A stretch of 26,159 bases of DNA from a virus: positions 1-26,159 of the IMG/VR virus record IMGVR_UViG_3300033571_010254; one strand, written 5' to 3'. The notes below the pieces were generated by a model that was not told the DNA's origin, made no database searches, and worked only from the letters and a program-made list of their open reading frames with translations. The translations under genes were made by a program, and so were the position numbers. Of the stretch, positions 13,928-26,159 are shown one piece after another. How positions within the stretch are numbered: the stretch's first letter is position 1; each line of letters starts with the position of its first letter.

Positions 13928-13967
13928 TTATTTGACCTCCAATCCTAGTCCTAAAAGATCACTCTTC

Positions 13968-13973: not shown

Positions 13974-14021
13974 ACCTATGTGGGTAGTTGAGGATTATCT
14001 AACTCAAAAACCCTACTTAGC

Positions 14022-14336
14022 TCACCACTTAAGTCCAAACTGCTTACCAGCCCAGTCCCACCGCTCAAGCGGCTCTTTCTTACTCAGGCCGCGGGCATTG
14101 AAGTCAGCCTTGAGTATCTCTTTATAATGGCCGGGCTTATTGATGAGGACTTCGCGGAGTAACCACCAGTCTTCAAACGATAAAGCCTCTGGCTCACTGC
14201 TTACGATTGGCTCAATCTTTCTAGCGGCTTCTAGAGCCTGCTTCTCTAGAGCGGCAATAGCAGCCCAATCAACCACTGCAGGCTCTGGACTCACTGGTGC
14301 AGGTTGCGGGTTATTCTTCTGTGTTTTCTTGCTCAT
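14022..14336 (-). CDS. Small conserved-position protein upstream of sheath, function unknown
   Basis: A 104-residue protein. The first ~20 residues are Lys/Asn/Pro-rich (KKTQKNNPQPAPVSPEPAVV) and likely disordered. The rest is helical with many Trp (DWAAIAALEKQALEAARKIE; SFEDWWLLREVLINKP; ERWDWAGKQFGLKW). Start ATG 14336 has AAAGG 8 nt upstream and overlaps the end of the preceding gene by 26 nt. I do not recognise the family. Its position between the tail-completion-type gene and the sheath suggests a structural or assembly role, but nothing in the sequence proves it. Confidence 0.6.
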   Translation of the reverse strand: MSKKTQKNNPQPAPVSPEPAVVDWAAIAALEKQALEAARKIEPIVSSEPEALSFEDWWLLREVLINKPGHYKEILKADFNARGLSKKEPLERWDWAGKQFGLKW

Positions 14337-15652: not shown

Positions 15653-17109
15653 TTTTTAGCAACTTTCGCCTTCAGATCGGTTAAGAAATTACCCTGATCC
15701 AGGGTTGACCAGTCTGAAGAAAAGGATATCTGAATCCTTCCATTGGGTTCTATCGTCACAGTTGGTTTTGACAGATAGTTGTAAAACGTGTCTAGAACCC
15801 TACCTACATTAGGTGTTTCTTGAGAAACAGCGTTGACAACCGTCTTATCGTCTTTATCGGGCACTTTGCTTCTAAGTTCCCTTAACTTAGATTCCAACTC
15901 GTCTATGTCAGAGCCAAGCTCTCGCGCTAGAGAGTTGTGCTTATCAGACATGTCATCCAACTTAGACTCGAGCTTATCTATGAGCTTGCCAACCCTATCT
16001 TCGATCTGCTGTAGGTCAACCGCAACGCCGTGCCTGACTTCTTGCCTGATTGACTCCATCTCATCGTAGACATCTGCTAAATTGTAGTTTCTATAGTTGT
16101 GGATCATTTTTTCGATACCACTATCTAGGGTATCGTCAGAAAGCTTGTCGTCTTCTTCTATCTCTTCTGGGATATCTTCTGGTAGGTACCACTCGAACAC
16201 GCTCATCAGCTCACCTGTGAGAGCAGGGAGAGATCTGTTTACAAAATTATGGATTGTTTTGTGTCCGTCGCGTATGTGCCCAGAGTACACGTCGTTGACG
16301 TGCTTTCTGACGACCATCGTATATGGTCCCATCTCGATCTCTTTGACTTCATCGTCGCCCATGCCCTTGATGCCATCTCGAAGTATGCGAAATGTTTTAT
16401 TGCCAATCAGCTTTAAGGCATCGCCATGAGTCATCTCGTACACAGCATGAGCTACTTGAGATGAGCGAATAATATTCTTCTCTAGCTTCTCTAGATAAAG
16501 CATGTCGTCGAGCTTCTTAGACTTCTTCATTTGCTCTGACACAAATCTGCTAAGCCCAGGGATACAGCATTCCCTTAGTTTGTGCCAGGGGATATCCTTA
16601 ACGGATACGAACTTGGCATCAACCATCTCTTTAGTATCTTTTAGTGAACCAGAAAACTTCCTAACCAGAAACACCGCGCCATATTCGTCAGCGTCTAATT
16701 CTTTGGCCTCTTGAGCCTCTAAGCCAGACTCTTCAGATAGCTCTCTAATAGCTGCTTCCATCGGAAGCTCGCCATCGTCGACACCGCCACCTGGAAGCAT
16801 CTTCTGGCCGTTTTCGGGGTTGGTGCCTATAAGGATAGCACCTTCGTCGTTCTGAACGATGACTCCAACACCCTTGATGTCTGCTTTTTTAAACTTAGCC
16901 TTCTCGGAGTGCTTGGCCTTCTTTTCTTTGTCCCATCGTCCACCCCTGTCTTCTTTACCCTTAGACTCGGTCAGATCTTTGCCGCCCCCAGAGTATTTCT
17001 CAGCTACAGATTTTGGTGGACCACTATCGCCACGCGATGTTTTGCCCTTGCCACCGTGCATGATAGCCATCATCATCCTGTACTGCTTCTTAGACGCGAA
17101 CTGTGGCAT
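15649..17109 (-). CDS. Nudix hydrolase domain fused to a coiled-coil neck-module protein
   Basis: A 486-residue protein. Residues 1-75 are basic and Gly/Lys-rich (MPQFASKKQYRMMMAIMHGG). Residues about 76-200 form a Nudix domain with a complete signature: G108, five residues, E114, seven residues, then R122 E123 L124 x E126 E127 x G129 L130. Nudix enzymes hydrolyse nucleoside diphosphates linked to another group (ADP-ribose, NADH, dNTPs, RNA caps); the substrate cannot be read here. Residues about 300-430 are strongly acidic and heptad-like (DLQQIEDRVGKLIDKLESKL). An intact catalytic box inside a neck/tail structural operon is unusual, so the enzyme may be packaged in or attached to the virion. 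It starts at ATG 17109 with GGAG 8 nt upstream; a TATAAT box with flanking inverted repeat precedes it. Confidence 0.85.
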   Translation of the reverse strand: MPQFASKKQYRMMMAIMHGGKGKTSRGDSGPPKSVAEKYSGGGKDLTESKGKEDRGGRWDKEKKAKHSEKAKFKKADIKGVGVIVQNDEGAILIGTNPENGQKMLPGGGVDDGELPMEAAIRELSEESGLEAQEAKELDADEYGAVFLVRKFSGSLKDTKEMVDAKFVSVKDIPWHKLRECCIPGLSRFVSEQMKKSKKLDDMLYLEKLEKNIIRSSQVAHAVYEMTHGDALKLIGNKTFRILRDGIKGMGDDEVKEIEMGPYTMVVRKHVNDVYSGHIRDGHKTIHNFVNRSLPALTGELMSVFEWYLPEDIPEEIEEDDKLSDDTLDSGIEKMIHNYRNYNLADVYDEMESIRQEVRHGVAVDLQQIEDRVGKLIDKLESKLDDMSDKHNSLARELGSDIDELESKLRELRSKVPDKDDKTVVNAVSQETPNVGRVLDTFYNYLSKPTVTIEPNGRIQISFSSDWSTLDQGNFLTDLKAKVAKK

Positions 17110-17132
17110 TGGCTAATCTCCGTATTCCCTAT

Positions 17133-17149
17133 AGACCATTATACGGTCT
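17133..17149 (-). promoter_or_regulatory. TATAAT box inside an inverted repeat
   Basis: On the minus strand AGACC-GTATAAT-GGTCT: a 5-bp inverted repeat exactly brackets a TATAAT box (17143-17138) in the 48-nt gap before the Nudix gene. It may be a promoter with an overlapping operator, or a small hairpin in read-through RNA. Confidence 0.4.
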
Positions 17150-17157
17150 CAAGGGGC

Positions 17158-17940
17158 TTACTTCAGTGTTTCTGGGCCATTAACAAAGAAGTCCCTACGA
17201 AGAACAACCTGCTGCGGCATTCTCCTAGCTGTCTTCTCCGTTCCTGACATCTCTTGTGTCACCCTTAGTTCTCTCATCGGATTCAGCACTATATACACTG
17301 GCTTACAGTAATAATTAGCAGAGTACACCTGTCCTTCGGGAGGCTGTCTTCCTTGAATCCAGGCTATACTTCCATCAACTATATTAAAGTCTTGTCCCTC
17401 AATGTATTCTTTTCTAGTGGAGTTATTGGCGGCTTCAATCCTAGCTGTTTTAACTATTGGATATCTTAGTTTTTGTATAAGCCCGACCCTAGTCTCAAAC
17501 TCCTTTAGTTCCCATAATCTTACTGTAAAATCAGTAACTTGTACCTTATCGAACATAGAAAAGTCTGCTTCGACGCCATCTGGATACTCAGTTGGGAACG
17601 TGACCACTACGGTACCGATCTCCCAGACGCCTTGTTTCTCGAACTGACGTTCGATTGAATTAGACGAGAAGAAACCAAATATCTCTTTTGTATCGTAGTA
17701 TAGTATGCCGCTTCCATCGCAGTGGGGACAAAGCGGATCGTGGTTGTTGTCACTCAGGCTCTTCATGTTTGAGCACGGGTAAGCCTTAGAGTGAAGGAAC
17801 CTGATCCCTCTGTTCTGTATAAGCTCATTAAAGGAATCCCTCTTTACACTAAAGTCGTGTATATTGGGTGGCATATAACTATTATAGGATTGGGGCGATA
17901 CAGGAGTAGGGGCGTTTGGCTTATCTATTGGGTTCGTCAT
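17158..17940 (-). CDS. Neck/head-tail protein with a CxxC zinc-ribbon-like motif
   Basis: About 260 residues. I choose ATG 17940 (MTNPIDKPNAPTPVSP), which has AGGA a few nt upstream, rather than an upstream ATG at 17973 that would overlap the divergent gene. C-terminal to a Pro-rich start it has SFNELIQNRGIRFLHSKAYP and then LCPHCDGSGILYY. CxxC plus an upstream Cys may bind zinc. The rest is beta-rich (VWEIGTVVVTFPTEYP; VQVTDFTVRLWELKEFETRV; IVLNPMRELRVTQE). This combination is often seen in neck or head-completion proteins of large myophages, and it is the first gene of the late operon in this window. The precise family is not identified. Confidence 0.55.
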   Translation of the reverse strand: MTNPIDKPNAPTPVSPQSYNSYMPPNIHDFSVKRDSFNELIQNRGIRFLHSKAYPCSNMKSLSDNNHDPLCPHCDGSGILYYDTKEIFGFFSSNSIERQFEKQGVWEIGTVVVTFPTEYPDGVEADFSMFDKVQVTDFTVRLWELKEFETRVGLIQKLRYPIVKTARIEAANNSTRKEYIEGQDFNIVDGSIAWIQGRQPPEGQVYSANYYCKPVYIVLNPMRELRVTQEMSGTEKTARRMPQQVVLRRDFFVNGPETLK

Positions 17941-17952
17941 CTCATTTCCTGT

Positions 17953-17958
17953 TATAAT
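17953..17958 (+). promoter_or_regulatory. -10 box in the divergent intergenic region, possible leaderless transcript
   Basis: TATAAT on the plus strand lies 6 nt before the ATG at 17965, so a start 7 nt downstream of the box would begin the mRNA at or next to the start codon. No ribosome binding site is visible before this ATG. On the other strand the same sequence reads GTATTATAAC and could serve the divergent neck gene. Confidence 0.4.
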
Positions 17959-17964
17959 ACAAAC

Positions 17965-18183
17965 ATGGAACACTTATATATCATAGCAGACACGGACTCA
18001 TGCAACAGTTTTTCACAGTCGGTTTGTGAAACCTGCCCTCTAGCAAAGATGAAGAAGAGGGCAGACGGAACTTATACTAGCTGCGCAGACGCGGTTGGTT
18101 TTAAGCGAACCGGGGATGGCTCCTACTCTAGGGCCGCAGTATCTGCCATAATAGATAAGCTAATAGAGGTTGAGCAAAGATGA
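17965..18183 (+). CDS. Small Cys-rich protein upstream of the endolysin, function unknown
   Basis: A 72-residue protein starting MEHLYIIADTDSCNSFSQSV. Four cysteines (residues 13, 21, 24, 40) include CETCPLAKMKK and TSCADAV and could bind a metal. A longer frame upstream overlaps the divergent gene and is probably spurious. The ATG has no Shine-Dalgarno sequence but follows a TATAAT box closely, so a leaderless mRNA is possible. Its stop overlaps the endolysin ATG by 4 nt (ATGA), which implies coupled translation. It has no transmembrane segment, so it is not an obvious holin. Confidence 0.65.
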   Translation: MEHLYIIADTDSCNSFSQSVCETCPLAKMKKRADGTYTSCADAVGFKRTGDGSYSRAAVSAIIDKLIEVEQR

Positions 18184-18779
18184 ACGTATTCGATATGGTG
18201 AAGAATATTATCCCTGAACCTCCAAAAGAAGGAGACGACAAAGTGAGAACTATAACTAAAGAAGGCATGGACTTGATAAAGTCCTACGAGTCTTGCGTCC
18301 TAAAGGCCTATGCGGACCCGGCCTCAGCCCTAGCCCAACAACTAAGAAAGATTTTAAGTAAGAGGGTCAAGGGTTGGGAAAATATGTCAGGCGACCCTTG
18401 GACAGTCGGCTGGGGATCAACCGGCTTAGACTACTTCAACCTAGATGCGCAGGGCAAGCCCACGAAGATCGGACCAAACACGCAGTGGACCCAAGTCCAA
18501 GCGGACCAGAGAAAGACAACAGACCTAGAGAGGTTCTGCAAACAAGTAAATGATCTAGTCACCTCGAACATAAACGACAACCAGTTCTCCGCGCTAGTTA
18601 GCTTCGCATACAATTGCGGCGTCGGTAACTTAAGTGGATCCACCCTACTTAAGCGAGTCAACGAGGGTAAGTTCCAAGAAGCCGCAGATGAGTTCTTAAA
18701 GTGGGATAAAGCAAAAGGCCAAGTGATGGCTGGCCTAACTAGGCGCCGCCAAGCAGAAAGAGCCTTGTTCCTGAAGTAA
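18180..18779 (+). CDS. Endolysin, GH24 lysozyme (muramidase)
   Basis: A 199-residue protein. It cleaves the beta-1,4 bond between N-acetylmuramic acid and N-acetylglucosamine in peptidoglycan for host lysis. The catalytic layout of T4-type lysozymes is visible: E37 in GMDLIKSYESCVLKAYADPA, D46 eight residues later, and T75 in DPWTVGWGSTG. An insertion of about 24 residues (SALAQQLRKILSKRVKGWEN) lies between D46 and T75, where most GH24 enzymes have only about five. Downstream are the usual 'NDNQFSALVSFAYNCGVGNL' and 'GLTRRRQAERALFL' motifs. There is a ~25-residue N-terminal extension and no clear signal peptide or SAR segment, so it should need a holin. The ATG overlaps the stop of the Cys-rich gene. 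Confidence 0.92.
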   Translation: MNVFDMVKNIIPEPPKEGDDKVRTITKEGMDLIKSYESCVLKAYADPASALAQQLRKILSKRVKGWENMSGDPWTVGWGSTGLDYFNLDAQGKPTKIGPNTQWTQVQADQRKTTDLERFCKQVNDLVTSNINDNQFSALVSFAYNCGVGNLSGSTLLKRVNEGKFQEAADEFLKWDKAKGQVMAGLTRRRQAERALFLK

Positions 18780-18850
18780 GTCGATCGGCCCTACCCCCAA
18801 TATTCCCCGATCCCATACCCTCCTCGTCTACGTGATATGAGGAGACAATC

Positions 18851-19513
18851 GTGACAAGACCAAGTGAAGACCCATCCCTATACAAAACAGATCAGAACTC
18901 GTACAAGCGCTACTCGGCTAGGGAGCAAGGCTTCCGCCGCAGCTACACCCTAAAGCTGCTAAAGGCCTTTGACTGCGCCTGTGCCAACTGCGGTGCCAAC
19001 GACAACGGCATGGAGCTAGACCACTTCTTCGTGCCGAAGTGCAACGGCGGTGACTTCGTCCTCGTCGAGACTACCGGCACCAAGCGCCTAAACGTGGTTC
19101 CTTTGTGCATGACCTGCAACCGTGACAAGAACCAGAAGCCTGCATCGGTATGGCTGAGCCAAGACAAGATCGATGCGATCTGGGCCAAGGCTCGTTACCT
19201 AGATGCGGAGATATCCGGTGTCGCCGTTGTGGCAAACGCGGTGCCGCCTAAGCCGGCCGAGCCTAGACCCGACTACAGCGGGATGACGAGAGAAGAGGCA
19301 AAGGCTAAGATGATAGCCGTGGCTCGTGCTAAGGGCGAGGCTAAGTACAGAGAGGCGAGGGAGAGGGAAGCTCGTGAGGTAGCGCTAGAAGTGGAAGCGG
19401 AGAAGGCAAGGCTTAAGGAGTGGCTCAGGAAGCGGGAGATAACTGAGAAGGCATGTAAGGAGCTTGGGGTACCAGTACCCAAGAGTCGTTTTAAGGCTAG
19501 TGGGCGTCTATAG
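18851..19513 (+). CDS. HNH endonuclease-like protein
   Basis: A 220-residue protein with a GTG start at 18851 preceded by GAGGAG. Residues 42-93 form an HNH module with a zinc ribbon: C44xxC47, then LDH (D57, H58), then N81 and C86xxC89N90. HNH proteins nick or cut DNA, as homing endonucleases, packaging nucleases or restriction enzymes. Residues 130-220 are a charged helix rich in Glu/Arg/Ala/Lys (EEAKAKMIAVARAKGEAKYR), unlike a typical homing-enzyme DNA-binding domain. It is free-standing, with no visible intron around it. It could be a selfish element that landed between the lysis gene and the small-gene cluster, or a phage nuclease; the sequence does not decide. Confidence 0.82.
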   Translation: MTRPSEDPSLYKTDQNSYKRYSAREQGFRRSYTLKLLKAFDCACANCGANDNGMELDHFFVPKCNGGDFVLVETTGTKRLNVVPLCMTCNRDKNQKPASVWLSQDKIDAIWAKARYLDAEISGVAVVANAVPPKPAEPRPDYSGMTREEAKAKMIAVARAKGEAKYREAREREAREVALEVEAEKARLKEWLRKREITEKACKELGVPVPKSRFKASGRL

Positions 19514-19731
19514 AGGGTAAGGGCGGTGGGTATGGTTGTTTATCCCTTATGGCAATAGTTGTAAAAGTAGTATGTAGAGAGTGTTTAGGCACCCTCATCG
19601 GTACTTCCGAAACAAGGGGTTCCCTGTAAGCAGAGGCTAGCGGGTATACTTCCCGATATTACCTCCCCTTACTGAAGGAAACGGGTGAGAATAACCTCCC
19701 CGATTCTAACTATCTCTACAAGGAGGATCCG
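19514..19731 (+). other. Structured non-coding leader, possible RNA element
   Basis: No gene in 218 nt. Many local stem-loops are possible: TCGG/CCGA around TACTT, a bulged ACAAGGG/CCCTGT, CGGG/CCCG around a 7-nt loop, and CCTT/AAGG around ACTG. Longer-range pairs AAGGGG/CCCCTT and GTAAGGG/CCCTTAC could close them into one fold that ends just before the 41-aa gene. A TTCCCGAT motif occurs near 19650 and a CCCCGATTC motif near 19698. I cannot match it to a named RNA family. Confidence 0.3.
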
Positions 19732-19857
19732 ATGGAATTGATTTACCTGATCTATCTCTGGCAACTCTCGTGGATGTTGATGGTTGTTCTAGTCGGGGGA
19801 TTCGCAGTTCTGACTGTATCCGATGTGATTAAGGAACTAGTGTTCAAGAAGAAGTGA
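19732..19857 (+). CDS. Small single-pass membrane protein
   Basis: A 41-residue protein, MELIYLIYLWQLSWMLMVVL followed by VGGFAVLTVS and a Lys-rich end. A strong ribosome binding site (AAGGAGG) sits 6 nt before the ATG. One transmembrane helix with a short N-terminus and a basic cytoplasmic tail is predicted by eye. It could be a holin-like, antiholin or host-takeover peptide; the endolysin is about 1 kb upstream. The stop codon directly abuts the first hammerhead ribozyme, so the 3' end of its message would be the ribozyme's stem III hairpin after cleavage. Confidence 0.75.
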   Translation: MELIYLIYLWQLSWMLMVVLVGGFAVLTVSDVIKELVFKKK

Positions 19858-19914
19858 GGACGAAATACCCGATAGCAAGGGTATCTGCAACTAAGTGGTT
19901 GCACTGATGAGTCT
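19858..19914 (+). ncRNA. Type II hammerhead ribozyme 1
   Basis: Order from 5' to 3': GGAC (19858-19861, stem II strand), GAAA (19862-19865), stem III TACCC/GGGTA with loop GATAGCAA, cleavage triplet ATC with the cut after C19885, stem I TGCAAC/GTTGCA with loop TAAGTG, core CTGATGA (19904-19910), and GTCT closing stem II. All conserved hammerhead core bases are present. It starts one base after a stop codon and ends 6 nt before the ribosome binding site of the 149-aa gene. Confidence 0.93.
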
Positions 19915-19932
19915 AACTTTAAGGAGTGTTAC

Positions 19933-20382
19933 ATGAAGCAAGTAGATGCAGTCGTAGCGATCGTGAGTGGGATCGAGGGATTTACTCCCGGAGTTAAGTT
20001 GACCAAGGAGCAGAAAGAAGAGTGCTTGACTCTGATCACACAAGGCTTGGTTGATGGTGAGATTGATATGAGCGCGGGTGCTCGGGCTAAGCACGACACT
20101 CCCGAGAAGATGAGGAGTTACTCGGTGGGACTGCTGGACAACTGGGTACGTAAGTCGCCCGAGTTGAATGGCGGAGTGAAGTACGTAGCTAAGAACCCAG
20201 GCTCACGAAGTGGGAGCAATGAGTACAAGCAAGCGATCGCGCTTAAGAAGTACTTGGCTGAGCAAGGCAAGGAGATTCCTACTGGGCTCCTGATGTTCAT
20301 CGCAGCCAACGCTCCGGTGAAGACCGAGAAGACCGTGGATATCTCAGCGCTTCCCGAGCACCTCCAGAAGTTGGTTGGCTAA
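19933..20382 (+). CDS. Conserved phage protein with GGVK..KNPGSRSGS motif, copy 1
   Basis: A 149-residue protein starting MKQVDAVVAIVSGIEGFTPG, with AAGGAG 6 nt before the ATG. It shares with the gene at 23322 the blocks 'GL[LM][DS]NW[VL]RKSP.LNGGVK', 'KNPGSRSGS.E[FY]KQA[IL]ALK' and a C-terminal 'TVD[IL]SALPEHL..LVG'. The protein is helical and soluble, and the basic central block could contact nucleic acid, but this is only a guess. I recall similar 'NPGSR.GS' blocks in other phage hypothetical proteins of unknown role. It is preceded by hammerhead 1 and followed by a GC-rich hairpin, so its mRNA may be a stand-alone unit. The function is unknown. Confidence 0.85.
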   Translation: MKQVDAVVAIVSGIEGFTPGVKLTKEQKEECLTLITQGLVDGEIDMSAGARAKHDTPEKMRSYSVGLLDNWVRKSPELNGGVKYVAKNPGSRSGSNEYKQAIALKKYLAEQGKEIPTGLLMFIAANAPVKTEKTVDISALPEHLQKLVG

Positions 20383-20389
20383 GTGAGTT

Positions 20390-20414
20390 GGGTGCGGGCG
20401 TGGTGCCCGTACCC
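20390..20414 (+). terminator. GC-rich hairpin after the 149-aa gene
   Basis: GGGTGCGGGC and GCCCGTACCC form a 10-bp stem (one G-U) around loop GTGGT, starting 7 nt after the stop codon. No T-run follows, so it may be an inefficient terminator or an mRNA-stabilising 3' hairpin. Its GGGCGTGGT segment can also pair with GCTACGCCC of the repeat directly downstream, giving an alternative fold. Confidence 0.5.
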
Positions 20415-20415
20415 A

Positions 20416-20434
20416 CTGACACTGCTACGCCCAG
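20416..20434 (+). repeat. GACACTGCTACGCCC intergenic element, copy A
   Basis: CTGACACTGCTACGCCCAG, one of four copies in the small-gene cluster (others at 21675, 22969, 24629). It is followed by a perfect 9-bp inverted repeat ATATAGTTT-CCG-AAACTATAT (20437-20457). CTGACA with TATAGT 16 nt downstream would make a reasonable sigma-70 promoter for the 88-aa gene; copy B has the same arrangement but copies C and D do not. Confidence 0.7.
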
Positions 20435-20436
20435 GG

Positions 20437-20467
20437 ATATAGTTTCCGAAACTATATATTATTAATA
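20437..20467 (+). promoter_or_regulatory. AT-rich element shared by copies A and B
   Basis: The inverted repeat 20437-20457 is followed by AACTATATATTATTAATAA (20450-20468). The same 19 nt recurs after repeat copy B (21711-21729), although the hairpins in between differ in sequence. The conserved block probably contains a promoter -10 region or an origin-like AT-rich segment for the genes that follow. Confidence 0.45.
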
Positions 20468-20547
20468 AATAAATGAGTTGAAAAACTTAAATATTTATTA
20501 GTGTGTTTTCCGATTCTATTAATGTGTGAACAACATGAGGAGAAGTC

Positions 20548-20814
20548 ATGAGTAAGATCACAGTCAGAGAGTTAGAAGAAGCGATCGCCGATGGTAGACT
20601 AACTGCAGGTGAGTTCCTGTCACACGGAGGCGTGAGCACCGGTGTTCACTCCATATACGACTTCGAGGTGTGGGACACTGACGAAGGTTTGAGGTTCATA
20701 TGCACTGAAGACCCCGATGAGATACTAACTTACGACGATGTCAAGCGGTTCTTCGAGGAGGATAAGGAAGACGACACTCTTGATCAGCAGCTGAGTGCAG
20801 TAGGTCTCGCATAA
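20548..20814 (+). CDS. Small acidic protein, tandem duplicate copy 1
   Basis: An 88-residue protein starting MSKITVRELEEAIADGRLTA, with GAGGAG 7 nt before the ATG. It is homologous over its length to the next gene: 'MSK.TV..L', 'TGVH.IY.F.VW.T.EGL.F.C..DPDE...Y.DV.R.F', and an end 'D.L..QLS..GL'. It is strongly acidic (EEDKEDDTLDQQ) and small, properties shared by many phage host-takeover proteins, but no function can be assigned. Its stop TAA provides the last base of stem II of hammerhead 2, so translation termination and ribozyme folding overlap. Confidence 0.85.
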   Translation: MSKITVRELEEAIADGRLTAGEFLSHGGVSTGVHSIYDFEVWDTDEGLRFICTEDPDEILTYDDVKRFFEEDKEDDTLDQQLSAVGLA

Positions 20815-20873
20815 GACGAAACTATCTTCCGAAACGAAGATAGTCTGTGACTAAGAGTCACACTGATGAGTCT
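20814..20873 (+). ncRNA. Type II hammerhead ribozyme 2
   Basis: AGAC (20814-20817) and GTCT (20870-20873) form stem II. GAAA is at 20818-20821. Stem III is an 8-bp CTATCTTC/GAAGATAG stem with loop CGAAAC. The cleavage triplet is GTC with the cut after C20845. Stem I is TGTGAC/GTCACA with loop TAAGA. The core CTGATGA is at 20863-20869. Stems I and III differ in sequence from ribozyme 1 yet pair perfectly. It lies between the two duplicated 88-aa genes. Confidence 0.93.
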
Positions 20874-20890
20874 AACTTTAAGGAGTCACT

Positions 20891-21157
20891 ATGAGTAAGT
20901 TCACAGTCGATCAACTTGTTGCAGAGTTAGAAGCGGGGAAGATGTTCGATGGCTCAATCACTGAACCTGATGGTTACGTAGAGACAGGAGTTCACTGCAT
21001 ATATGAGTTCTCAGTGTGGAAGACAGTCGAAGGACTAGCGTTCGTATGTCACGACGACCCCGATGAACTATGTGATTATGAGGATGTAGTGAGAGTCTTT
21101 GGGTCTAAGAATGATGATTCACTGATGAAGCAACTGAGTGAACAAGGTCTTATATAA
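20891..21157 (+). CDS. Small acidic protein, tandem duplicate copy 2
   Basis: An 88-residue protein starting MSKFTVDQLVAELEAGKMFD; AAGGAG sits 5 nt before the ATG. It is a paralogue of the preceding gene with the same length and the conserved core TGVHCIYEFSVWKT then EGLAFVCHDDPDEL. The copies have diverged enough to suggest an old duplication or selection for different targets. The leader from the ribozyme core to the ribosome binding site (CTGATGAGTCTAACTTTAAG) is identical to that of the 149-aa gene, so ribozyme and leader behave as a mobile cassette. It converges on the minus-strand gene, with only 5 nt between stop codons and no visible terminator. Confidence 0.85.
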   Translation: MSKFTVDQLVAELEAGKMFDGSITEPDGYVETGVHCIYEFSVWKTVEGLAFVCHDDPDELCDYEDVVRVFGSKNDDSLMKQLSEQGLI

Positions 21158-21162
21158 GACGA

Positions 21163-21639
21163 CTAAGAGATCTTGGTCTTAACCTTACCAGCCAGGATCT
21201 TCTTGGCCTCGGCTGCTCCAGAACCAGTAGCTGCTTTATCTGAGTCACTTTCATGAGTCTTTTCGCCGAGGCCCGAAGTCATGACATGAGTAGCCGCAGC
21301 AAACGCAGCGTGATGGTCCAACCCATGCTTGTTCTTGAAGTGATTAACTAACTCGCCGTGTAGTGGGTGATCTTCTACGGTTTTCGGCGGCTCGGTGCGT
21401 CGGCGAACTTCGCCTCTGTCGGCTACATCTTTGTGTGCAGCCGATACTGCGCTCGCTTCTGCTTCTAGGCGTTTCTGCTCCGCTGCTCTAGCCGCGTTTG
21501 CTGCAATACCCTCTTTAGAGGGGACATACTGGTCTCCTCCGTCAAAGGAGTTACCACCACCGAAGTTGCCGTGCTTACTAGTGTCCTTGGCCTTAACTAG
21601 TGTCCACTGCCCGTTGCTATGCTTGATTAGCTTTTCCAT
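21163..21639 (-). CDS. Ala/Lys-rich protein on the opposite strand, function unknown
   Basis: A 158-residue protein starting MEKLIKHSNGQWTLVKAKDT, with AAGGAG 6 nt before the ATG. The N-terminus has a Gly-rich stretch (KHGNFGGGNSFDGG), the middle a charged helix (AANAARAAEQKRLEAEASAV), and the C-terminal half His/Ala-rich helices (HHAAFAAATHVMTSGL). The composition resembles phage virion-associated or scaffold-like proteins. It is the only minus-strand gene in the small-gene cluster and carries its own TATAAT box, like the late structural genes, so it may be expressed with them. Its stop is 5 nt from that of the convergent 88-aa gene. Confidence 0.7.
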   Translation of the reverse strand: MEKLIKHSNGQWTLVKAKDTSKHGNFGGGNSFDGGDQYVPSKEGIAANAARAAEQKRLEAEASAVSAAHKDVADRGEVRRRTEPPKTVEDHPLHGELVNHFKNKHGLDHHAAFAAATHVMTSGLGEKTHESDSDKAATGSGAAEAKKILAGKVKTKIS

Positions 21640-21658
21640 GTGTTCTCCTTAACCTAAG

Positions 21659-21669
21659 GGTATTATACC
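21659..21669 (-). promoter_or_regulatory. TATAAT box in inverted repeat, promoter of the 158-aa gene
   Basis: GGTATAATACC on the minus strand (5-1-5 inverted repeat), 20-30 nt before the start codon. It resembles the AGACC-GTATAAT-GGTCT site at 17133-17149, where the -10 box is also bracketed by an inverted repeat. Confidence 0.45.
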
Positions 21670-21674
21670 ACTAT

Positions 21675-21693
21675 CTGACACTGCTACGCCCAG
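21675..21693 (+). repeat. GACACTGCTACGCCC intergenic element, copy B
   Basis: Identical over 19 nt to copy A. It is followed by GGGAATT-T-AATTCCC (21694-21708) in place of copy A's different inverted repeat, and then the shared AACTATATATTATTAATAA. Lying between divergent genes, it must serve as a transcription start region or DNA signal for the plus-strand genes rather than as a 3' end. Confidence 0.7.
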
Positions 21694-21766
21694 GGGAATT
21701 TAATTCCCGTAACTATATATTATTAATAAGAGAATAACAAAGTTCTCTTACACATTGGAGTTTATT

Positions 21767-21943
21767 ATGTATCAAGTTCAGGTTTGGCACGGCTCAACTG
21801 ATGCACGGTCTTTCATGACTATACACTCATTCTCTGCTTTACAAGAGGCTATGAGATACTTCTCCGATGGCAGAAGGAGAAGAGCGATGATAGTCAATAC
21901 AGCGAGTAGAGTGGTGATTGTAAGAAAGGGTGAGTGGTTCTGA
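21767..21943 (+). CDS. Small basic protein, function unknown
   Basis: A 58-residue protein from ATG 21767 (MYQVQVWHGSTDARSFMTIH); a TTG four codons upstream is not needed, since GGAG lies 6 nt before the ATG. It has a beta-strand start, a central helix (SALQEAMRYFSDGRRRRAM) with an Arg cluster, and a beta-strand end (IVNTASRVVIVRKG). The small alpha/beta pattern with a basic patch would suit nucleic acid or acidic-protein binding; this is only a hint. It is the first gene of a short operon after element copy B. Confidence 0.65.
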   Translation: MYQVQVWHGSTDARSFMTIHSFSALQEAMRYFSDGRRRRAMIVNTASRVVIVRKGEWF

Positions 21944-21987
21944 TAGTCGTATCCGAATCTATATCTATATGTAACTAGGAGGTTATT

Positions 21988-22197
21988 ATGAGTCAACCAA
22001 CGAGCGTCCGACTACATGCTAACTTGGAGCTACTACGGATACTAGAGACCTACTTGAGGACCTATCCCGATATGAGGTTCAGTCAGGCGCTGATAAACCT
22101 GGATATGGTGCAGTTAGATAAGGATGATTTCTATACCGAACCCACAGAGCTACTGAAGCGAGTGTATCAAGCCTTAGAAGAAAGAGGTGGACAATGA
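21988..22197 (+). CDS. Small helical protein, function unknown
   Basis: A 69-residue protein starting MSQPTSVRLHANLELLRILE with AGGAGG 6 nt upstream. Almost wholly helical; ETYLRTYPDMRFSQALINLD is an amphipathic block. The length and composition recall small phage regulators of the ribbon-helix-helix type (strand SVRL, then helices), but the usual turn motif is not clear. The stop overlaps the next ATG (ATGA), so the two are co-translated. Confidence 0.65.
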   Translation: MSQPTSVRLHANLELLRILETYLRTYPDMRFSQALINLDMVQLDKDDFYTEPTELLKRVYQALEERGGQ

Positions 22198-22349
22198 ACG
22201 AACTTACGCTTAGACAGTTAATGCAGTTCGCTTGGGACGAATTCAAGCTGGAATACTACCCAGATGTACCTGATGAGGCACTAGATCAACCTGTTTCCGA
22301 CGAAGTAGTAGAAGAGCTTAACTTTATACTAGACAACTTACCGGGGTGA
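22194..22349 (+). CDS. Very small acidic protein
   Basis: A 51-residue protein starting MNELTLRQLMQFAWDEFKLE and ending VVEELNFILDNLPG. It overlaps the preceding stop by 4 nt and is followed after 3 nt by the next ATG. GGTGG just upstream may act as its ribosome binding site. Acidic and helical, with no motif recognised. The tight packing and continuous reading frame support it being a real gene. Confidence 0.6.
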   Translation: MNELTLRQLMQFAWDEFKLEYYPDVPDEALDQPVSDEVVEELNFILDNLPG

Positions 22350-22352
22350 ACG

Positions 22353-22670
22353 ATGGATTTCGAAGTAGAGCTACACGAACAGATAGCAGAAAAGTTCTCC
22401 GAGTTACTGATGGCTGAGCTTGGTCTAGCCACTATGGTTGATATATGCGAAGCTAACAAGCACAACCATAAGCATGAGTGCGCTTCGCATGACTACGTAG
22501 ACGCTAATATGTTCATGAACGATGCCTTTAAGTTGGTGACTGGCAGGGAGATGAGCATGGATAGCTACGAGGATATCAAGCTGTGGTCCGACGCTTGGGA
22601 TCACGCTAAGGTCGAGGACTTCTACATCGACTGGGGTGACTTGTACTACAAGCAGAACTTGCCGGGGTAA
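22353..22670 (+). CDS. Small His/Asp-rich protein, function unknown
   Basis: A 105-residue protein starting MDFEVELHEQIAEKFSELLM. Its middle is rich in His, Cys and Asp (MVDICEANKHNHKHECASHD), which may bind a metal, followed by a helical segment and a Trp/Tyr/Asp-rich end (HAKVEDFYIDWGDLYYKQNL). GGGG lies 5 nt before the ATG. It is the last gene of the three-gene run 21988-22670 and is followed by a gap with a stable hairpin. I do not recognise the family. Confidence 0.6.
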   Translation: MDFEVELHEQIAEKFSELLMAELGLATMVDICEANKHNHKHECASHDYVDANMFMNDAFKLVTGREMSMDSYEDIKLWSDAWDHAKVEDFYIDWGDLYYKQNLPG

Positions 22671-22702
22671 GGGCAAAGTATAACATACTAGATTTTAGAA
22701 TA

Positions 22703-22723
22703 CCATTCTAGCTATTAGAATGG
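22703..22723 (+). terminator. Perfect 8-bp hairpin in a gene gap
   Basis: CCATTCTA-GCTAT-TAGAATGG, 33 nt after the stop of the His/Asp-rich gene. Only CAGTTT follows, so it is a weak terminator at best; it could equally mark an mRNA 3' end by blocking exonucleases. Confidence 0.4.
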
Positions 22724-22762
22724 CAGTTTAAGTGGGCTTTAAGGTTTATAAGGGGCATTATA

Positions 22763-22945
22763 ATGGGCATCGAACTAGTGGTCTTGTACTGTGTGTACGC
22801 TATCGTGGGCGGAGTTGTAGTCAACACCTCCATCAACGTAGTAGGTGAGATCTCGGTGGCTAACTCCAAGGAAAGCAGCGAGAAGTACGTGGCTTGTCAG
22901 GCCAACGAGAGCAACGACGCTAGCTCCTGCAAGGGTCTGGAGTGA
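22763..22945 (+). CDS. Small membrane protein with Cys-containing tail
   Basis: A 60-residue protein starting MGIELVVLYCVYAIVGGVVV. Residues 3-22 form a hydrophobic segment, followed by a polar Ser/Asn/Glu-rich tail with two cysteines (KYVACQANESNDASSCKGLE). AAGGGG lies 7 nt before the ATG. It may be an uncleaved signal anchor with the tail outside the cytoplasm, where the cysteines could pair. No lipobox fits well. Function unknown. Confidence 0.6.
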   Translation: MGIELVVLYCVYAIVGGVVVNTSINVVGEISVANSKESSEKYVACQANESNDASSCKGLE

Positions 22946-22968
22946 TACCGAGGGTGTCTGCGTGAAGC

Positions 22969-22987
22969 CCGACACTGCTACGCCCAG
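22969..22987 (+). repeat. GACACTGCTACGCCC intergenic element, copy C
   Basis: CCGACACTGCTACGCCCAG, differing from A and B in one base. It lies inside a larger fold: CCGAGG (22948-22953) plus TGT pair with ACA plus CCTCGG (22999-23007), with a single bulged G. An alternative hairpin GTGTC/GACAC (22954-22958 with 22971-22975) would expose GCGT for pairing with ACGC of the element. Confidence 0.65.
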
Positions 22988-23092
22988 CACCCGAACCCAC
23001 ACCTCGGCCCCACGATCCGATGCAGCCCCAGTTTCCCGATACCATATATAACTATCAACCAACCAAGGTTGATTAACCAAGGAGTGCTTCAT

Positions 23093-23242
23093 ATGAGAGG
23101 TTCGCTTCGCACTACGGTGAACATCATCCTCGCTCAGATGATCGCAGCGGGAAACGATGACGTAGACTACTCTTGTGACTCGTGGACTGACGACGAAGTC
23201 TATGACTTCTACTGCAACTACGCCGATCACTACTGTCGGTAA
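23093..23242 (+). CDS. Very small acidic protein
   Basis: A 49-residue protein starting MRGSLRTTVNIILAQMIAAG, followed by an Asp/Tyr/Cys-rich half (DVDYSCDSWTDDEVYDFYCN) ending in YCR. AAGGAG lies about 7 nt upstream of the ATG. Three cysteines and many aspartates suggest metal binding or a compact disulphide-free fold; nothing more can be said. It lies directly upstream of hammerhead 3, whose stem II starts 5 nt after the stop. Confidence 0.65.
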   Translation: MRGSLRTTVNIILAQMIAAGNDDVDYSCDSWTDDEVYDFYCNYADHYCR

Positions 23243-23246
23243 CTTA

Positions 23247-23303
23247 AGACGAAATACCCGATAGCAAGGGTATCTGCCAGTAGGTTCTGGCACTGATGAG
23301 TCT
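23247..23303 (+). ncRNA. Type II hammerhead ribozyme 3
   Basis: AGAC (23247-23250) pairs with GTCT (23300-23303) as stem II. GAAA is at 23251-23254. Stem III TACCC/GGGTA with loop GATAGCAA is identical to ribozyme 1. The cleavage triplet is ATC with the cut after C23274. Stem I TGCCAG/CTGGCA with loop TAGGTT has compensatory changes relative to ribozyme 1. CTGATGA is at 23293-23299. It precedes the paralogue of the gene that follows ribozyme 1. Confidence 0.93.
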
Positions 23304-23321
23304 AATTAAGGAGTGTTACAT

Positions 23322-23768
23322 ATGAAGTCACAATCAAAGGCAGTCGTAGAGATCGTACAGTCAATCGTTGGAGTAACTGCGGAAGCAGTCACCCTAACTA
23401 GTGAGCAACGCAAGGAAGCAATCGGTATGCTCGTAGCGGGACTCATGAACGGAGAGATCAGCTTGAGCAAGGAGTACAGCGAAGCTAAGGCGCGAAGCTA
23501 CGCTTCAGGTCTGCTCAGCAACTGGCTCCGTAAGTCACCTGCCCTCAACGGTGGGGTCAAGCACGAAGTCAAGAACCCTGGTAGCCGATCTGGTAGCCCA
23601 GAGTTCAAGCAAGCTCTAGCTCTCAAAGCGGCTCTGATCGCTAAGGGATCTGAAGTTACAGCTGAGCTCGAAGCGTTCATTGAAGCTAACCGCCCACAGC
23701 CTAAGTCTGCTGCCAAGACTGTGGACCTCTCCGCACTACCCGAGCACTTGAGATCCCTGGTGGGATAA
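23322..23768 (+). CDS. Conserved phage protein with GGVK..KNPGSRSGS motif, copy 2
   Basis: A 148-residue protein from ATG 23322 (MKSQSKAVVEIVQSIVGVTA); a GTG three codons upstream falls in the ribosome binding site AAGGAG and is not the start. It matches the 149-aa protein at 19933 in the middle (LRKSPALNGGVKHEVKNPGS, RSGSPEFKQALALKAAL) and at the end (KTVDLSALPEHLRSLVG). Codons differ considerably from copy 1, so the duplication is old, yet both keep a hammerhead with the same stem III and the same leader GAGTGTTACAT. Ribozyme and gene appear to have been duplicated or transferred as one unit. Function unknown. Confidence 0.85.
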   Translation: MKSQSKAVVEIVQSIVGVTAEAVTLTSEQRKEAIGMLVAGLMNGEISLSKEYSEAKARSYASGLLSNWLRKSPALNGGVKHEVKNPGSRSGSPEFKQALALKAALIAKGSEVTAELEAFIEANRPQPKSAAKTVDLSALPEHLRSLVG

Positions 23769-23774
23769 GTCCGT

Positions 23775-23847
23775 AACCGAGGACGAAACCTAGGACTCGC
23801 TCGAGATCCTAGGTCCATGGCTGATAGCCATGCTGATGAGTCCGGTT
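23775..23847 (+). ncRNA. Type II hammerhead ribozyme 4
   Basis: Stem II GGAC (23781-23784) with GTCC (23840-23843), extended by AACC (23775-23778) with GGTT (23844-23847) across a 2-nt bulge. GAAA is at 23785-23788. Stem III is CCTAGGA/TCCTAGG topped by CTC/GAG. The cleavage triplet is GTC with the cut after C23815. Stem I is CATGGC/GCCATG with loop TGATA. CTGATGA is at 23833-23839. It is the longest and most diverged of the four and ends 35 nt before the next start codon. Confidence 0.92.
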
Positions 23848-23881
23848 TCCGATACCATCCCCTATATAAGGAGGAACGACT

Positions 23882-24097
23882 ATGTTTAAGTCAAGCGGGT
23901 TGAGATTAGCATACTGCGACTATATCACTCATGTGATCACTGCGGCCATACCTAAGGCGACTGAGATAAAGCTCAGGAACGTAGAGATAAAGATGGACTT
24001 AAACGAAGACGGTAGCTTTAGGTCACCTAAGCGCACCATCATAGTGAAGGACCAGTACGACAAGTCCTACACCATAACCGTGGAAGAGACAGAGTGA
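23882..24097 (+). CDS. Small basic protein, function unknown
   Basis: A 71-residue protein starting MFKSSGLRLAYCDYITHVIT with AAGGAGG 6 nt upstream. The N-terminal half is helical; the C-terminal half reads as a three-strand beta sheet (EIKLRNVEIKMDLN; KRTIIVKDQYDKSYTITVEE). No motif is recognised. It follows hammerhead 4 and a TTTCCGATACCAT motif. Its TGA overlaps the ATG of a 23-aa membrane peptide by one base. Confidence 0.65.
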   Translation: MFKSSGLRLAYCDYITHVITAAIPKATEIKLRNVEIKMDLNEDGSFRSPKRTIIVKDQYDKSYTITVEETE

Positions 24098-24168
24098 TGG
24101 ATCCAGGCACAGCGGCTATATTCTTGTTGATAATGACTCTCATCTTCATTAACTTGTCCATTAAGTAA
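24097..24168 (+). CDS. 23-residue membrane peptide
   Basis: MDPGTAAIFLLIMTLIFINL ending SIK: one transmembrane helix with a negatively charged start and a single terminal lysine. It overlaps the preceding stop by one base, which suggests re-initiation by the same ribosomes. The next gene's ribosome binding site follows immediately. Gene status is supported by hydrophobic composition and packing, not by similarity. Confidence 0.5.
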   Translation: MDPGTAAIFLLIMTLIFINLSIK

Positions 24169-24180
24169 GGAGACTATGTT

Positions 24181-24423
24181 ATGCAACCTATTAGGTACTT
24201 CGTGATGTACGACCACTCTACTTTCGACACTATCGTGAAGGTGGATTCCGAAGTCCACAACCTAGTGACGTGGGTAGTTTCCTCTCACTCTGACATGGAC
24301 GAAGCTATGGCTAAGGCTCACGCTATACGCTCTGGCAACTTAGACCTCTTCACAGTCCCAGGACCATGGCACTCCATAGCTCACCTATACGATGAGCCAC
24401 TAGACGAAGAGTATATAGTCTGA
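24181..24423 (+). CDS. Small acidic protein, function unknown
   Basis: An 80-residue protein starting MQPIRYFVMYDHSTFDTIVK with AAGGAG 9 nt before the ATG. Pattern: two beta-strands, a His/Trp-containing turn (NLVTWVVSSHSDMDEAM), a helix (AMAKAHAIRSGNLDLF), and an acidic end (YDEPLDEEYIV). It is the last gene before the long non-coding stretch. No family recognised. Confidence 0.65.
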   Translation: MQPIRYFVMYDHSTFDTIVKVDSEVHNLVTWVVSSHSDMDEAMAKAHAIRSGNLDLFTVPGPWHSIAHLYDEPLDEEYIV

Positions 24424-25453
24424 TTGGGCTACGGGCTTATCATAGCCACCCCCAAACAACTTGAATTCGCACCCTACTTATCCTACTCTCCCAACTACAA
24501 CTCAAGACCACAAAATAAAAGTGTATATAAACCCCCAGCCCTAAGCGCACCAACTCGCGCCACCAAAACACCCGTAACTCACTGATATCATTATCCCACC
24601 CCGTAGCCCAACAACCCCACCAAACCACCTGACACTGCTACGCCCCACACCCGAAGCCCTAAAACGAGCAAAACTCCCTAGGACTTCTCTCACTCCTATC
24701 ATCCCGAAACTAAAATCTCTAGCAATATCAACAAAGCCACCCACCTATCTCATTTTACCCCTAGGGGAAAGCACCATTCCCAACCCAACTACCAAAAAGC
24801 CTAATGATTTCCTCGACACCCGATTTACCCCTAGGACAACACGCAAACCACCCGGGAGGTATCTGTAGGGATAGGGTAGGAGGGAGCAGGATACCCGACC
24901 TGTAAACCTATAGGTGGGCAAAACCGTGGTGATTTGTAACCCTATAGGTTACCGCGGCGTGGCCACAAGTGAGAGATGTTGTTGCGAGAGTAGGGATAGT
25001 TGTGGGCGGAAACAACCTGCCTATAGGCTCGCCCTAGGCTAGTTAAATCACTATAGTTTTTATGTCTTTCCTATAGTAATGGTGAGGATCATTATCACTA
25101 TAACTCTACCAGTCCACTCCCTATCCCTTTCGTGCTACTAACTGGTATAGGTGGTTGGTTGGGAATGGTATGGGGTTAAGGTGATACGTACGTGTTAGTT
25201 ACGGTAGGTTTTGGCACTTAAGTGTATCTAATAGTAGTAGTTACGTAGGGGATTAGGGTATTTGAGGGTATAGGGATTAGTAGGTAGTTATAACTGGGTA
25301 TAGGTGGGTATAGGTTGTTATAAGAGGTTATTTTAGGGGTTTATAAGTTAGTTACGGCGGTTACTATATCTTCCACCCAGGGTTTGGGGAAGGTAAGGTA
25401 TGGGATTCCGAATTGATAATGGATAGTTGTAGGGTAATTGTGGGGAGGGGTTT
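24424..25453. other. 1-kb non-coding region with sharp strand-composition switch
   Basis: No convincing gene on either strand; two overlapping minus-strand frames here have atypical composition. From about 24430 to 24860 the plus strand is rich in C and A and poor in G (the 180 nt from 24481 hold 77 C and 17 G). After about 24860 it turns G/T-rich (25261-25320 has 22 G and 1 C). The junction region holds the palindrome CCTATAGG three times (24907, 24941, 25020), more CTATAG sites, TACCCCTAGG twice (near 24756 and 24824), and TCACTATA twice (25048, 25095). A change from C-rich to G-rich is typical of a bidirectional replication origin. Confidence 0.55.
24629..24645 (+). repeat. GACACTGCTACGCCC intergenic element, copy D
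   Basis: CTGACACTGCTACGCCC, identical to copies A and B over 17 nt, but in the non-coding C-rich region with no gene or AT-rich block just downstream. Upstream ACCACC resembles the ACC.AC before copies A and B. GTAGC at 24603 can pair with its GCTAC. Confidence 0.6.
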
Positions 25454-25663
25454 ATGAAGGTGCTAGTGGTTGGATTGATTGTATTGAGCGGATGTACTTT
25501 TAGGGTATCTGAGCCTAACGTTGATGGAGGTGTTGACGGTGAGTATGGCTTTAGCGAAGCTAAGGCGGTTGGTTTTGGTGTGTACAGACTAGAGAATAGC
25601 GAAGTGATTTGCTATAGATATAACGGCCTGAATAAAGCTGGTTTGAGCTGTAAGTTTAAGTAG
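25454..25663 (+). CDS. Small lipoprotein
   Basis: A 69-residue protein with a lipoprotein signal peptide: MKVLVVGLIVLSGC, lipobox LSGC with Cys14 as the lipidated residue. The mature part has two further cysteines (VICYRYNGLNKAGLSCKFK) that could form a disulphide, so it is probably outside the cytoplasm. GGGGAGGGG lies 6 nt before the ATG. Phage lipoproteins of this size include superinfection-exclusion proteins and outer spanins; it lacks the Pro-rich body of most spanins. The role is not determined. Confidence 0.75.
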   Translation: MKVLVVGLIVLSGCTFRVSEPNVDGGVDGEYGFSEAKAVGFGVYRLENSEVICYRYNGLNKAGLSCKFK

Positions 25664-25734
25664 GGGTGGGAAGTGGGCATCAGACCCTTGAGTTATATTC
25701 CGAAGGTATATGAATCACGATATGGGGAGGGGTT

Positions 25735-25929
25735 ATGCGGCGCTTACTGGCAAGGGTGGTCGTACTGGTGTTGGCTATAGCTGCAGTATGCGGTTTGATG
25801 TCTATCCCCGGCTTCAGAGAGATAGTCGGGATGACCGCTTTGTGGCTATGGTACTTGACTGTTGTTTTGTACTCTGTGGTGCTTTGGGTGTTCTTGGTGG
25901 TGCTAGGCTTCATACTGAGCCTGCTTTAA
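25735..25929 (+). CDS. Small two-helix membrane protein
   Basis: A 64-residue protein starting MRRLLARVVVLVLAIAAVCG, with GGGGAGGGG upstream of the ATG. Two transmembrane segments (residues about 5-22 and 36-62: TALWLWYLTVVLYSVVLWVF) flank a short loop (SIPGFREIVG). Basic N-terminus, so the ends are likely cytoplasmic. A holin-like role is possible by size and topology, but it is about 7 kb from the endolysin and the loop is short. An overlapping frame from 25710 is less hydrophobic and probably a shadow. Confidence 0.6.
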   Translation: MRRLLARVVVLVLAIAAVCGLMSIPGFREIVGMTALWLWYLTVVLYSVVLWVFLVVLGFILSLL

Positions 25930-25942
25930 GGGGATAGGGACT

Positions 25943-26014
25943 ATGGAGATACTAATTGGGGTTTGGGCTGCCATCCTGATAGGGATCTTCGTTCTGTATG
26001 TAGTTGGAGTGTGA
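25943..26014 (+). CDS. 23-residue membrane peptide
   Basis: MEILIGVWAAILIGIFVLYV ending VGV: a single transmembrane helix. It starts 13 nt after the stop of the two-helix membrane gene, with GGGGATAGGGA before the ATG. It resembles in size the 23-aa peptide at 24097, though the sequences are unrelated. The call rests on composition and spacing. Confidence 0.45.
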   Translation: MEILIGVWAAILIGIFVLYVVGV

Positions 26015-26017
26015 GGC

Positions 26018-26159
26018 ATGGGACGAAGCCTGCCAGTCTTTGATGAGGACTTCGGTTCTCAAGGTAATGTTAGACTGTTGTTCGGTGCCCATTTTGCAGG
26101 TACAAGAGACAGGGATACTAAGGGAGACCCCTTCGGAGTGGTGAGATTGAAGTTTGGGA
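26018..26159 (+). CDS. Unknown protein, N-terminal part (partial)
   Basis: An open frame from ATG 26018 to the window end (47 codons visible), starting MGRSLPVFDEDFGSQGNVRL and continuing LFGAHFAGTRDRDTKGDPFG. It starts 3 nt after the stop of the preceding peptide; GAGG of that stop region lies just before the ATG. Glycine and Asp/Arg-rich, no motif recognised in the visible part. Confidence 0.5.
   Translation, partial: MGRSLPVFDEDFGSQGNVRLLFGAHFAGTRDRDTKGDPFGVVRLKFG

Follow-up and report, generated by a model that had tools for sequence, protein, structure and literature searches.

The virus record analysed here over its whole length (the window; IMG/VR record IMGVR_UViG_3300033571_010254, 26,159 bases) carries four sequences with the complete core of a type II hammerhead ribozyme. 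Structural genes, including those for the tail sheath, a baseplate protein and virion proteins, occupy the minus strand. The plus strand encodes an endolysin and an HNH endonuclease, together with a series of small genes that is broken by a minus-strand frame at 21163-21639. All four hammerheads sit among the small plus-strand genes (Table 1). Full cores between these genes had been described in an earlier note made from the letters of the DNA, and the order of their parts, their stem I sequences and the predicted cut bases are as given there.

Table 1. Hammerheads, adjacent genes and predicted RNA (aa, amino acids; nt, nucleotides; L005, locus of the 151-kb contig described in the text).
Feature	Coordinates	Strand	Remarks
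Type II hammerhead 1	19858-19914	+	predicted cut after C19885; stem I TGCAAC/GTTGCA
Type II hammerhead 2	20814-20873	+	predicted cut after C20845; stem I TGTGAC/GTCACA
Type II hammerhead 3	23247-23303	+	predicted cut after C23274; stem I TGCCAG/CTGGCA; stem III common with hammerhead 1
Type II hammerhead 4	23781-23843	+	predicted cut after C23815; stem I CATGGC/GCCATG
Uncharacterised protein, 149 aa, paralog 1	19933-20382	+	directly 3' of hammerhead 1
88-aa gene	20548-20814	+	5' of hammerhead 2
88-aa gene	20891-21157	+	3' of hammerhead 2; equal in length and similar at the start to the preceding gene
49-aa gene	23093-23242	+	5' of hammerhead 3
Uncharacterised protein, 148 aa, paralog 2	23322-23768	+	lies between hammerheads 3 and 4
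Predicted excised single-gene RNA (148-aa paralog 2)	23275-23815	+	541 nt
71-aa gene	23882-24097	+	3' of hammerhead 4
Paralog 3 of the uncharacterised family	L005:18751-19257

Each of the four sites has the CUGANGA and GAAA segments of the hammerhead core, the A15.1-U16.1 pair and an H17 at the cut. The parts follow the type II order, GAAA-stem III-UC-stem I-CUGAUGA, in which stems I and III are closed by loops and stem II is open. Stem I comprises 6-7 pairs, stem II 4 pairs and stem III 6-9 pairs. The pattern GACGAAA..TC..CTGATGAGTC has 4 matches in the window, all on the plus strand, compared with 0 in 100 dinucleotide shuffles, and the hammerhead fold is the minimum-energy structure at each site (z scores -2.34, -3.18, -2.23 and -3.99). 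Our own scanner found no type I or type III hammerhead in the window. At sites 1, 2, 3 and 4 the distance from the end of the upstream stop codon to GAAA is 4, 3, 8 and 16 nt, respectively. A stop-sharing arrangement is seen at sites 1 and 2: the first base of hammerhead 1 directly follows the stop TGA (19855-19857) of a 41-aa frame (19732-19857), and the first stem II base of hammerhead 2 is the last base of the stop TAA at 20812-20814. Sites 3 and 4 share no base with a stop codon.

Positions 13328-26159 of the window match a longer contig, IMGVR_UViG_3300032308_002092 (151,207 bases), at 99.98% within the stretch compared. This 151-kb contig holds six hammerheads, the fifth detected by pattern and the sixth, in which the variable core position N7 is a C, by covariance model; all six retain an intact core. 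Copies 1, 3 and 5 each precede one of three paralogs of one uncharacterised gene family, and paralogs 2 and 3 have hammerheads on both sides. Hammerheads 1 and 3 are 86% identical over 65 nt, and the paralogs downstream of them share 56% protein identity. Among the duplicated copies 1, 3 and 5 the stem III pairs are kept, and stem I changes on both of its sides, with TGCAAC, TGCCAG and TGCTGG each facing its complement. Since sites 1 and 3 precede paralogs and share stem III, the differences in stem I are covariation after duplication. The earlier note had taken the four stems I as covariation within one genome; compensation of the stems holds, but sites 1 and 3, with their common stem III, are not independent of each other. 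Post-duplication covariation in one genome appears to be the strongest evidence here for selection on RNA pairing.

Such elements are not confined to this phage. A scan of viral contigs that demanded the core bases only returned at least 120 stretches, from which neither a total nor the relative frequency of the hammerhead types can be derived. Our scanner finds correctly paired type II hammerheads in 110 of the 120 stretches listed (196 in all); the same 120 loci read in reverse (1.15 Mb) give none. As the scanner demands stems, counts of stem II covariation are partly given by construction, and a pairing-free pattern provides the unselected test: among its 129 distinct matches, 108 have six pairs in both stems I and III and 12 have fewer than four pairs in either of them, compared with a mean of 0.0 shuffled inserts with six pairs in both stems. 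All copies lie on one strand in 41 of 42 multi-copy loci. Exactly one reading frame between neighbouring copies is the commonest arrangement (43 of 89 pairs), with none in 12 and two or more in 34, in a count that takes in both the window and the near-identical locus L005.

The earlier note had proposed Rfam's type II covariance model as a check, and this model, RF02276 (Hammerhead_II), gives no match in the window at its 37-bit gathering score; at E-values up to 10, site 3 alone matches, with 29.4 bits over all 66 model positions. We used a covariance model of our own, R1, built from 74 of 75 elements (L104:9901-9960 was left out by hand) that had been chosen among 86 distinct ones of standard length. 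R1 scores site 1 at 57.9, site 2 at 56.8, site 3 at 61.2 and site 4 at 54.5 bits; site 1 belongs to the building set and sites 2, 3 and 4 lie outside it, near copies of site 3 (copies 1 and 5) being included. In 25 records known to hold copies, R1 finds matches in all 25, with 1 to 12 in each. The densest arrays by R1 are those of G007, with 12 elements in 5.4 kb, and of G006, with 8 in 3.3 kb, so that four in 4 kb, which the earlier note had considered an unusual density, is ordinary for such arrays.

The shape of loop I offers an account of the Rfam result. In 102 of 179 elements, stem I has six pairs and its loop five bases, with U at loop position 1 in 97, A at position 3 in 73 and G at position 5 in 66. 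A further 38 have six bases in the loop, with U at position 1 in 38, A or G at position 2 in 37, U at position 5 in 30 and G at position 6 in 32. RF02276 at gathering finds 9 elements in 11 array loci, taken from the 120 listed, where our scanner finds 56, and 7 of the 9 have a long loop I. We infer that RF02276 misses the window elements because it favours long-loop elements; absence of ribozymes as the cause of the null result was set aside in favour of this bias. The 5-6 nt loop I may be the reason that Rfam misses most of the type II elements sampled, and the window elements appear to be short-loop type II hammerheads that the curated model under-detects. A loop I-tail pairing score of at least 4 is reached by 39 of the 179 elements, a modest excess over re-dealt or shuffled sequences (mean 20.8, highest 33).

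Type II elements lie close to the ends of genes. Of 175 distinct type II elements among the matches listed, 162 away from locus ends were counted, and 124 of these start within 5 nt of an upstream stop codon. The median distance to the upstream stop is 0 where one was found (159 of 162), and a start codon follows at a median of 24 nt after stem II where found (134 of 162); these stops and starts are simple frame calls of at least 30 codons, not curated genes. Only 23 of 75 type I elements (counted out of 99 found), 0 of 20 type III elements (20 found) and 6% of random positions lie equally near a stop. The type I and III set comes from a second scan, of at least 120 stretches, with a pattern that has a short stem II loop, and the comparison of types is rough, as the 5' ends of types I and III depend on the open-stem length set by the scanner. 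With a slightly wider margin (161 elements), a stop within 5 nt combined with a start 10-40 nt away is found for 90 elements on the sense strand versus 2 on the antisense strand; when the stop alone is considered, the antisense strand gives 31 of 161. Among the sampled viral contigs, this tendency in position distinguishes type II from types I and III.

The fit extends to single bases. In 145 of 179 elements the stop of a frame of at least 30 residues ends 1-12 nt before GAAA, and in 76 of them exactly 3 or 4 nt before it. At 4 nt there are 35 elements (22 TAA, 12 TGA, 1 TAG) and at 3 nt 41 (33 TAG, 4 TAA, 4 TGA); therefore, the AGGAC of the ribozyme often supplies the last one or two bases of the stop codon. 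Position -5 before GAAA is an A in 152 of the 179, position +5 after CTGATGA is an A in 120, and both are A in 111, which makes A/A a frequent mismatch next to the four pairs of stem II. Of the 86 elements whose stop codon lies elsewhere, 70 still have the A at -5.

Arrays of the same kind are found in named phages. DNA searches with three arrays against named phages gave no match, and a search with a fourth brought up Streptomyces phage Salutena, in which 121 bases of a hypothetical gene match at 73.8%. R1 finds 11 elements in Salutena at E-values up to 0.1, and similar arrays are present in five Salutena-related phages. Together, the regions of the six Streptomyces phages (L347, L349-L353) contain 62 type II hammerheads of RF02276 grade, 8-13 each. 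No ribozyme is listed in the feature tables of these stretches, and neither 'ribozyme' nor 'hammerhead' occurs in the main text of the Salutena announcement (PMC8407740). By the deposited genes, 55 of the 62 elements are intergenic; a stop lies within 8 nt of GAAA in 24 of the 62, so the stop tendency looks looser there. All six phages keep a hammerhead before one short gene of 141-144 nt, with a stem I that differs between two groups; orthology of this gene was judged by size and order only, and the place is a candidate orthologous position. In Jevington, one hammerhead lies directly 5' of an OCR-like antirestriction gene, and ardA, another anti-restriction gene, has been described beside hammerheads (Perreault et al., 2011; PMC3088659). 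Two features look new, the close stop-codon fit and how abundant these arrays are in other phages: among titles and abstract beginnings of the open-licence literature we found neither stop-codon overlap nor hammerhead arrays of Streptomyces phages, which is weak evidence of absence. One hammerhead sequence recurs unchanged in L355, L356 and L360, which carry the labels Phycicoccus jejuensis, Streptomyces iakyrus and an Eggerthellaceae assembly; this points to a phage common to them or to contamination.

Among named phages, the tail sheath of the window is nearest to that of Myxococcus phage Mx1 (27.6% over 58%). R1 finds no hammerhead in Mx1 (L348), a phage with many tRNA genes, an annotated RNA ligase A just after the tail sheath and a TROVE-domain protein further on. 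Type II hammerheads occur in 3 of 77 loci of tail-sheath relatives, one being the window's own phage, and R1 gives 0 matches in 21 records of relatives; an empty R1 answer alone shows nothing and the relatives are partly fragments, yet R1 found all 25 of the known records. Within the lineage, hammerheads thus appear to be gained and lost.

The gene family that accompanies copies 1, 3 and 5 has a conserved LNGG-K-NPG-R core and homologs in other viral contigs. The 148/149-aa proteins have no Pfam or PHROG match, and their only match among PDB sequences has E = 5. A structure model of the family is predicted to be mostly helical (pLDDT, the predicted local distance difference test, 83.9; pTM, the predicted template modelling score, 0.55), and Foldseek found nothing better than E = 1.1 for it. 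We considered and dropped a general link, across the lineage, of hammerheads with this family, as 16 of 19 family loci, in part fragments, have no hammerhead by our scanner. The 3 of 19 with a hammerhead just upstream are L131 and L132, which represent one phage, and L147, the hammerhead of which is unrelated; most loci of the family have other leaders.

A promoter-like site lies at 20416, between hammerhead sites; such sites are no commoner than in shuffles. The sequence TGACACTGCTACG is found at window positions 20417, 21676 and 24630, and at 22971 without its first T. It recurs letter for letter in 13 of 15 lineage records searched, among them G001 and 12 records besides the window's own phage, with 60 copies in total and 0 in a backward-read control. 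Several copies are preceded by a hairpin with a T run, and a CCGATAC-like A+T-rich sequence often lies 3' (22 copies viewed); TGACACTGCTACG is perhaps part of a phage promoter. CCGATAC or CCGATTC followed by A+T-rich sequence is present at 23849-23856, just 3' of hammerhead 4, with similar sequences at 20510 and 23036. Because this motif recurs in leaders, the gene at 23882 may also have a promoter of its own. The plus-strand part (17700-26159) has no near match among named phages.

We propose that the four elements are self-cleaving type II hammerheads that cut phage mRNA between genes, which we consider probable. This proposal rests on sequence, predicted structure, orientation, position and compensated pairing, from which cleavage is inferred. 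Once transcribed, an element would fold and cut after C17. The stem III hairpin, bearing a 2',3'-cyclic phosphate, would then close the upstream message 28, 31, 32 or 47 nt past the stop codon. The downstream message would begin with a 5'-OH and the hairpin of stem I, 5' of the ribosome site, and its start codon would follow after 47, 45, 47 or 66 nt. Hairpins at both ends should shield the messages from exonucleases and from 5'-phosphate-dependent decay, and single-gene units would gain lifetimes of their own, uncoupled from those of their neighbours and without a host enzyme. By topology, type II is the only one of the three circular permutations that leaves a hairpin on both sides of the cut, which would explain why type II sits so tightly between genes in these samples. 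In the folds of the four predicted downstream leaders we saw no obvious ribosome-site switch. Hammerheads 3 and 4 with the gene they enclose are the cleanest unit.

Several observations weigh against this proposal. The loop I-tail pseudoknot, which accelerates type II hammerheads, is clear only at site 1, with four Watson-Crick pairs (AAGU/ACUU); it is weaker at sites 2 and 3 and absent at site 4 (scores 3.5, 3.0 and 2.0). A given site may be inactive, since 14 of 18 consensus hammerheads tested elsewhere were active in vitro (PMC3088659). By simple frame calls, 12 of the 89 neighbouring pairs enclose no frame, and the scarcity among relatives (3 of 77 loci, 0 of 21 records) indicates that the lineage does not need hammerheads. 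The minus-strand frame at 21163-21639 and the promoter-like site at 20416 mean, moreover, that the four sites need not share one transcript, and a single transcript over all of them is doubtful. The cutting of polycistronic mRNA between genes, as put forward in the earlier note, is nevertheless the best reading by orientation, placement, compensated stems and precedent. It is not new, having been proposed in 2011, and it is supported in part, with a reservation about one common transcript.

The tight fit to stop codons raises the possibility that translation gates cutting. A ribosome at the shared stop would cover stem II and GAAA and block folding, so that mainly untranslated messages would be cut and the ribozyme would act as a translation sensor. 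The stops that end 1-12 nt before GAAA in 145 of 179 elements, 76 of them at exactly 3 or 4 nt, are in line with this idea, as are the 33 of 41 stops at 3 nt that are TAG, with an AG that is also ribozyme sequence, and the lower frequency of nearby stops among the sampled type I and III elements. However, genome economy accounts equally well for the closeness, only 24 of 62 elements in the annotated Streptomyces phages have a stop within 8 nt, and window sites 3 and 4 (8 and 16 nt before GAAA) share no stop base, and we regard gating as rather unlikely. We also raise, as rather unlikely, the idea that these arrays represent a distinct phage intercistronic module, in which the type II element supplies part of the upstream stop (U-AGGAC-GAAA or UA/UG-AGGAC-GAAA), termination and folding compete, and the permutation has been selected for its two hairpin caps. 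If this were true, runs of small genes, some with anti-defence genes, would be cut in a translation-dependent manner into single-gene messages without host nucleases.

The duplications could instead reflect a mobile or recombination unit, a ribozyme-plus-gene cassette that duplicates and moves between phages, with cleavage incidental. Such a cassette would fit the three paralogs of the 151-kb contig, each with an upstream and two with a downstream hammerhead, and the patchy occurrence among relatives. It is made improbable by the covariation of stem I after duplication and the intact core in six copies, which need selection on RNA pairing; furthermore, hammerhead 2 is not beside the 148-aa family, and 16 of 19 loci of that family have no hammerhead by our scanner. 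The ends left by hammerheads are substrates for RtcB-type ligases, and the cut RNAs might be rejoined or circularised by an RNA ligase into spliced or circular RNAs. We consider this very unlikely: 14 hammerhead-bearing records, most of them possibly fragments, contain no RtcB (9 of 14 control genomes are positive), an RNA ligase is present in 1 of 14, and Perreault et al. (2011) report that they detected no such products (PMC3088659); a ligase of the host might nevertheless act on the ends. That the sites are DNA palindromes or protein-binding sites that merely resemble hammerheads is hardly credible. Stems I and III are inverted repeats in DNA as well, but the conserved bases outside the stems match the hammerhead core, one strand is kept in 41 of 42 multi-copy loci, and stem II joins bases about 45 nt apart and varies on both sides (in stems that were pre-selected).

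Cutting of mRNA between genes by self-cleaving hammerheads would also matter beyond this phage. If the arrays cut early mRNAs into pieces of gene size, annotation at the Rfam gathering score misses part of this processing. According to a 2023 paper, hammerhead and twister ribozymes of bacteria are over-represented next to certain genes, above all those of Mu-like phages, and near one another; the paper described the biological reason for that enrichment and the function of bacterial and phage hammerheads as unknown (PMC10085705). The clean case of duplicated copies with compensated stems, the positional tendency of type II and the named Streptomyces phages make the question of function testable.

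Among known systems, the closest are the type II hammerheads of Perreault et al. (2011), which cluster around prophage genes and have a loop I-tail pseudoknot (PMC3088659). Three of those arrays cleave in vitro and one in E. coli, and it was proposed that long phage transcripts are cut to operon- or gene-length mRNAs (PMC3088659). The window shares with them the core and the topology, the presence of several copies around single genes or short blocks, and the processing hypothesis; here, too, several hammerheads flank co-directed genes (four on the plus strand of the window and six in the 151-kb contig). It differs in being a tail-sheath virus of an uncultured lineage, in which a loop I of 5-6 nt closes a stem of six pairs and the pseudoknot is clear at 1 of 4 sites. 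Stop-codon overlap and a comparison across permutations do not appear in the passages of Perreault et al. (2011) considered here. In the haloviruses HF1 and HF2, a hammerhead lies 13 nt upstream of an early gene start, and a mapped transcript 5' end falls within three nt of the cut (PMC3088659); that hammerhead has a variant core and an archaeal host and is not described as an array (PMC3088659).

The Arquatrovirinae-type Streptomyces phages (Salutena and the five related ones) resemble the window in carrying type II hammerheads between small genes, but their elements mostly have a longer loop I, score at or above gathering and lie at looser distances from the stop. Site 3 of the window aligns with RF02276 over all 66 positions and has the same core, with a score below gathering, so that it is not filed under that family. 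In phage T7, host RNase III cuts the early mRNA between genes into gene-sized messages that end in hairpins. If the hammerhead arrays cut early mRNAs to gene size, they would be an RNA-only counterpart of this processing. The T7 scheme needs a host enzyme, whereas the RNA of the window would cut itself, which makes the array a functional analogue of the T7 system and not a member of it.

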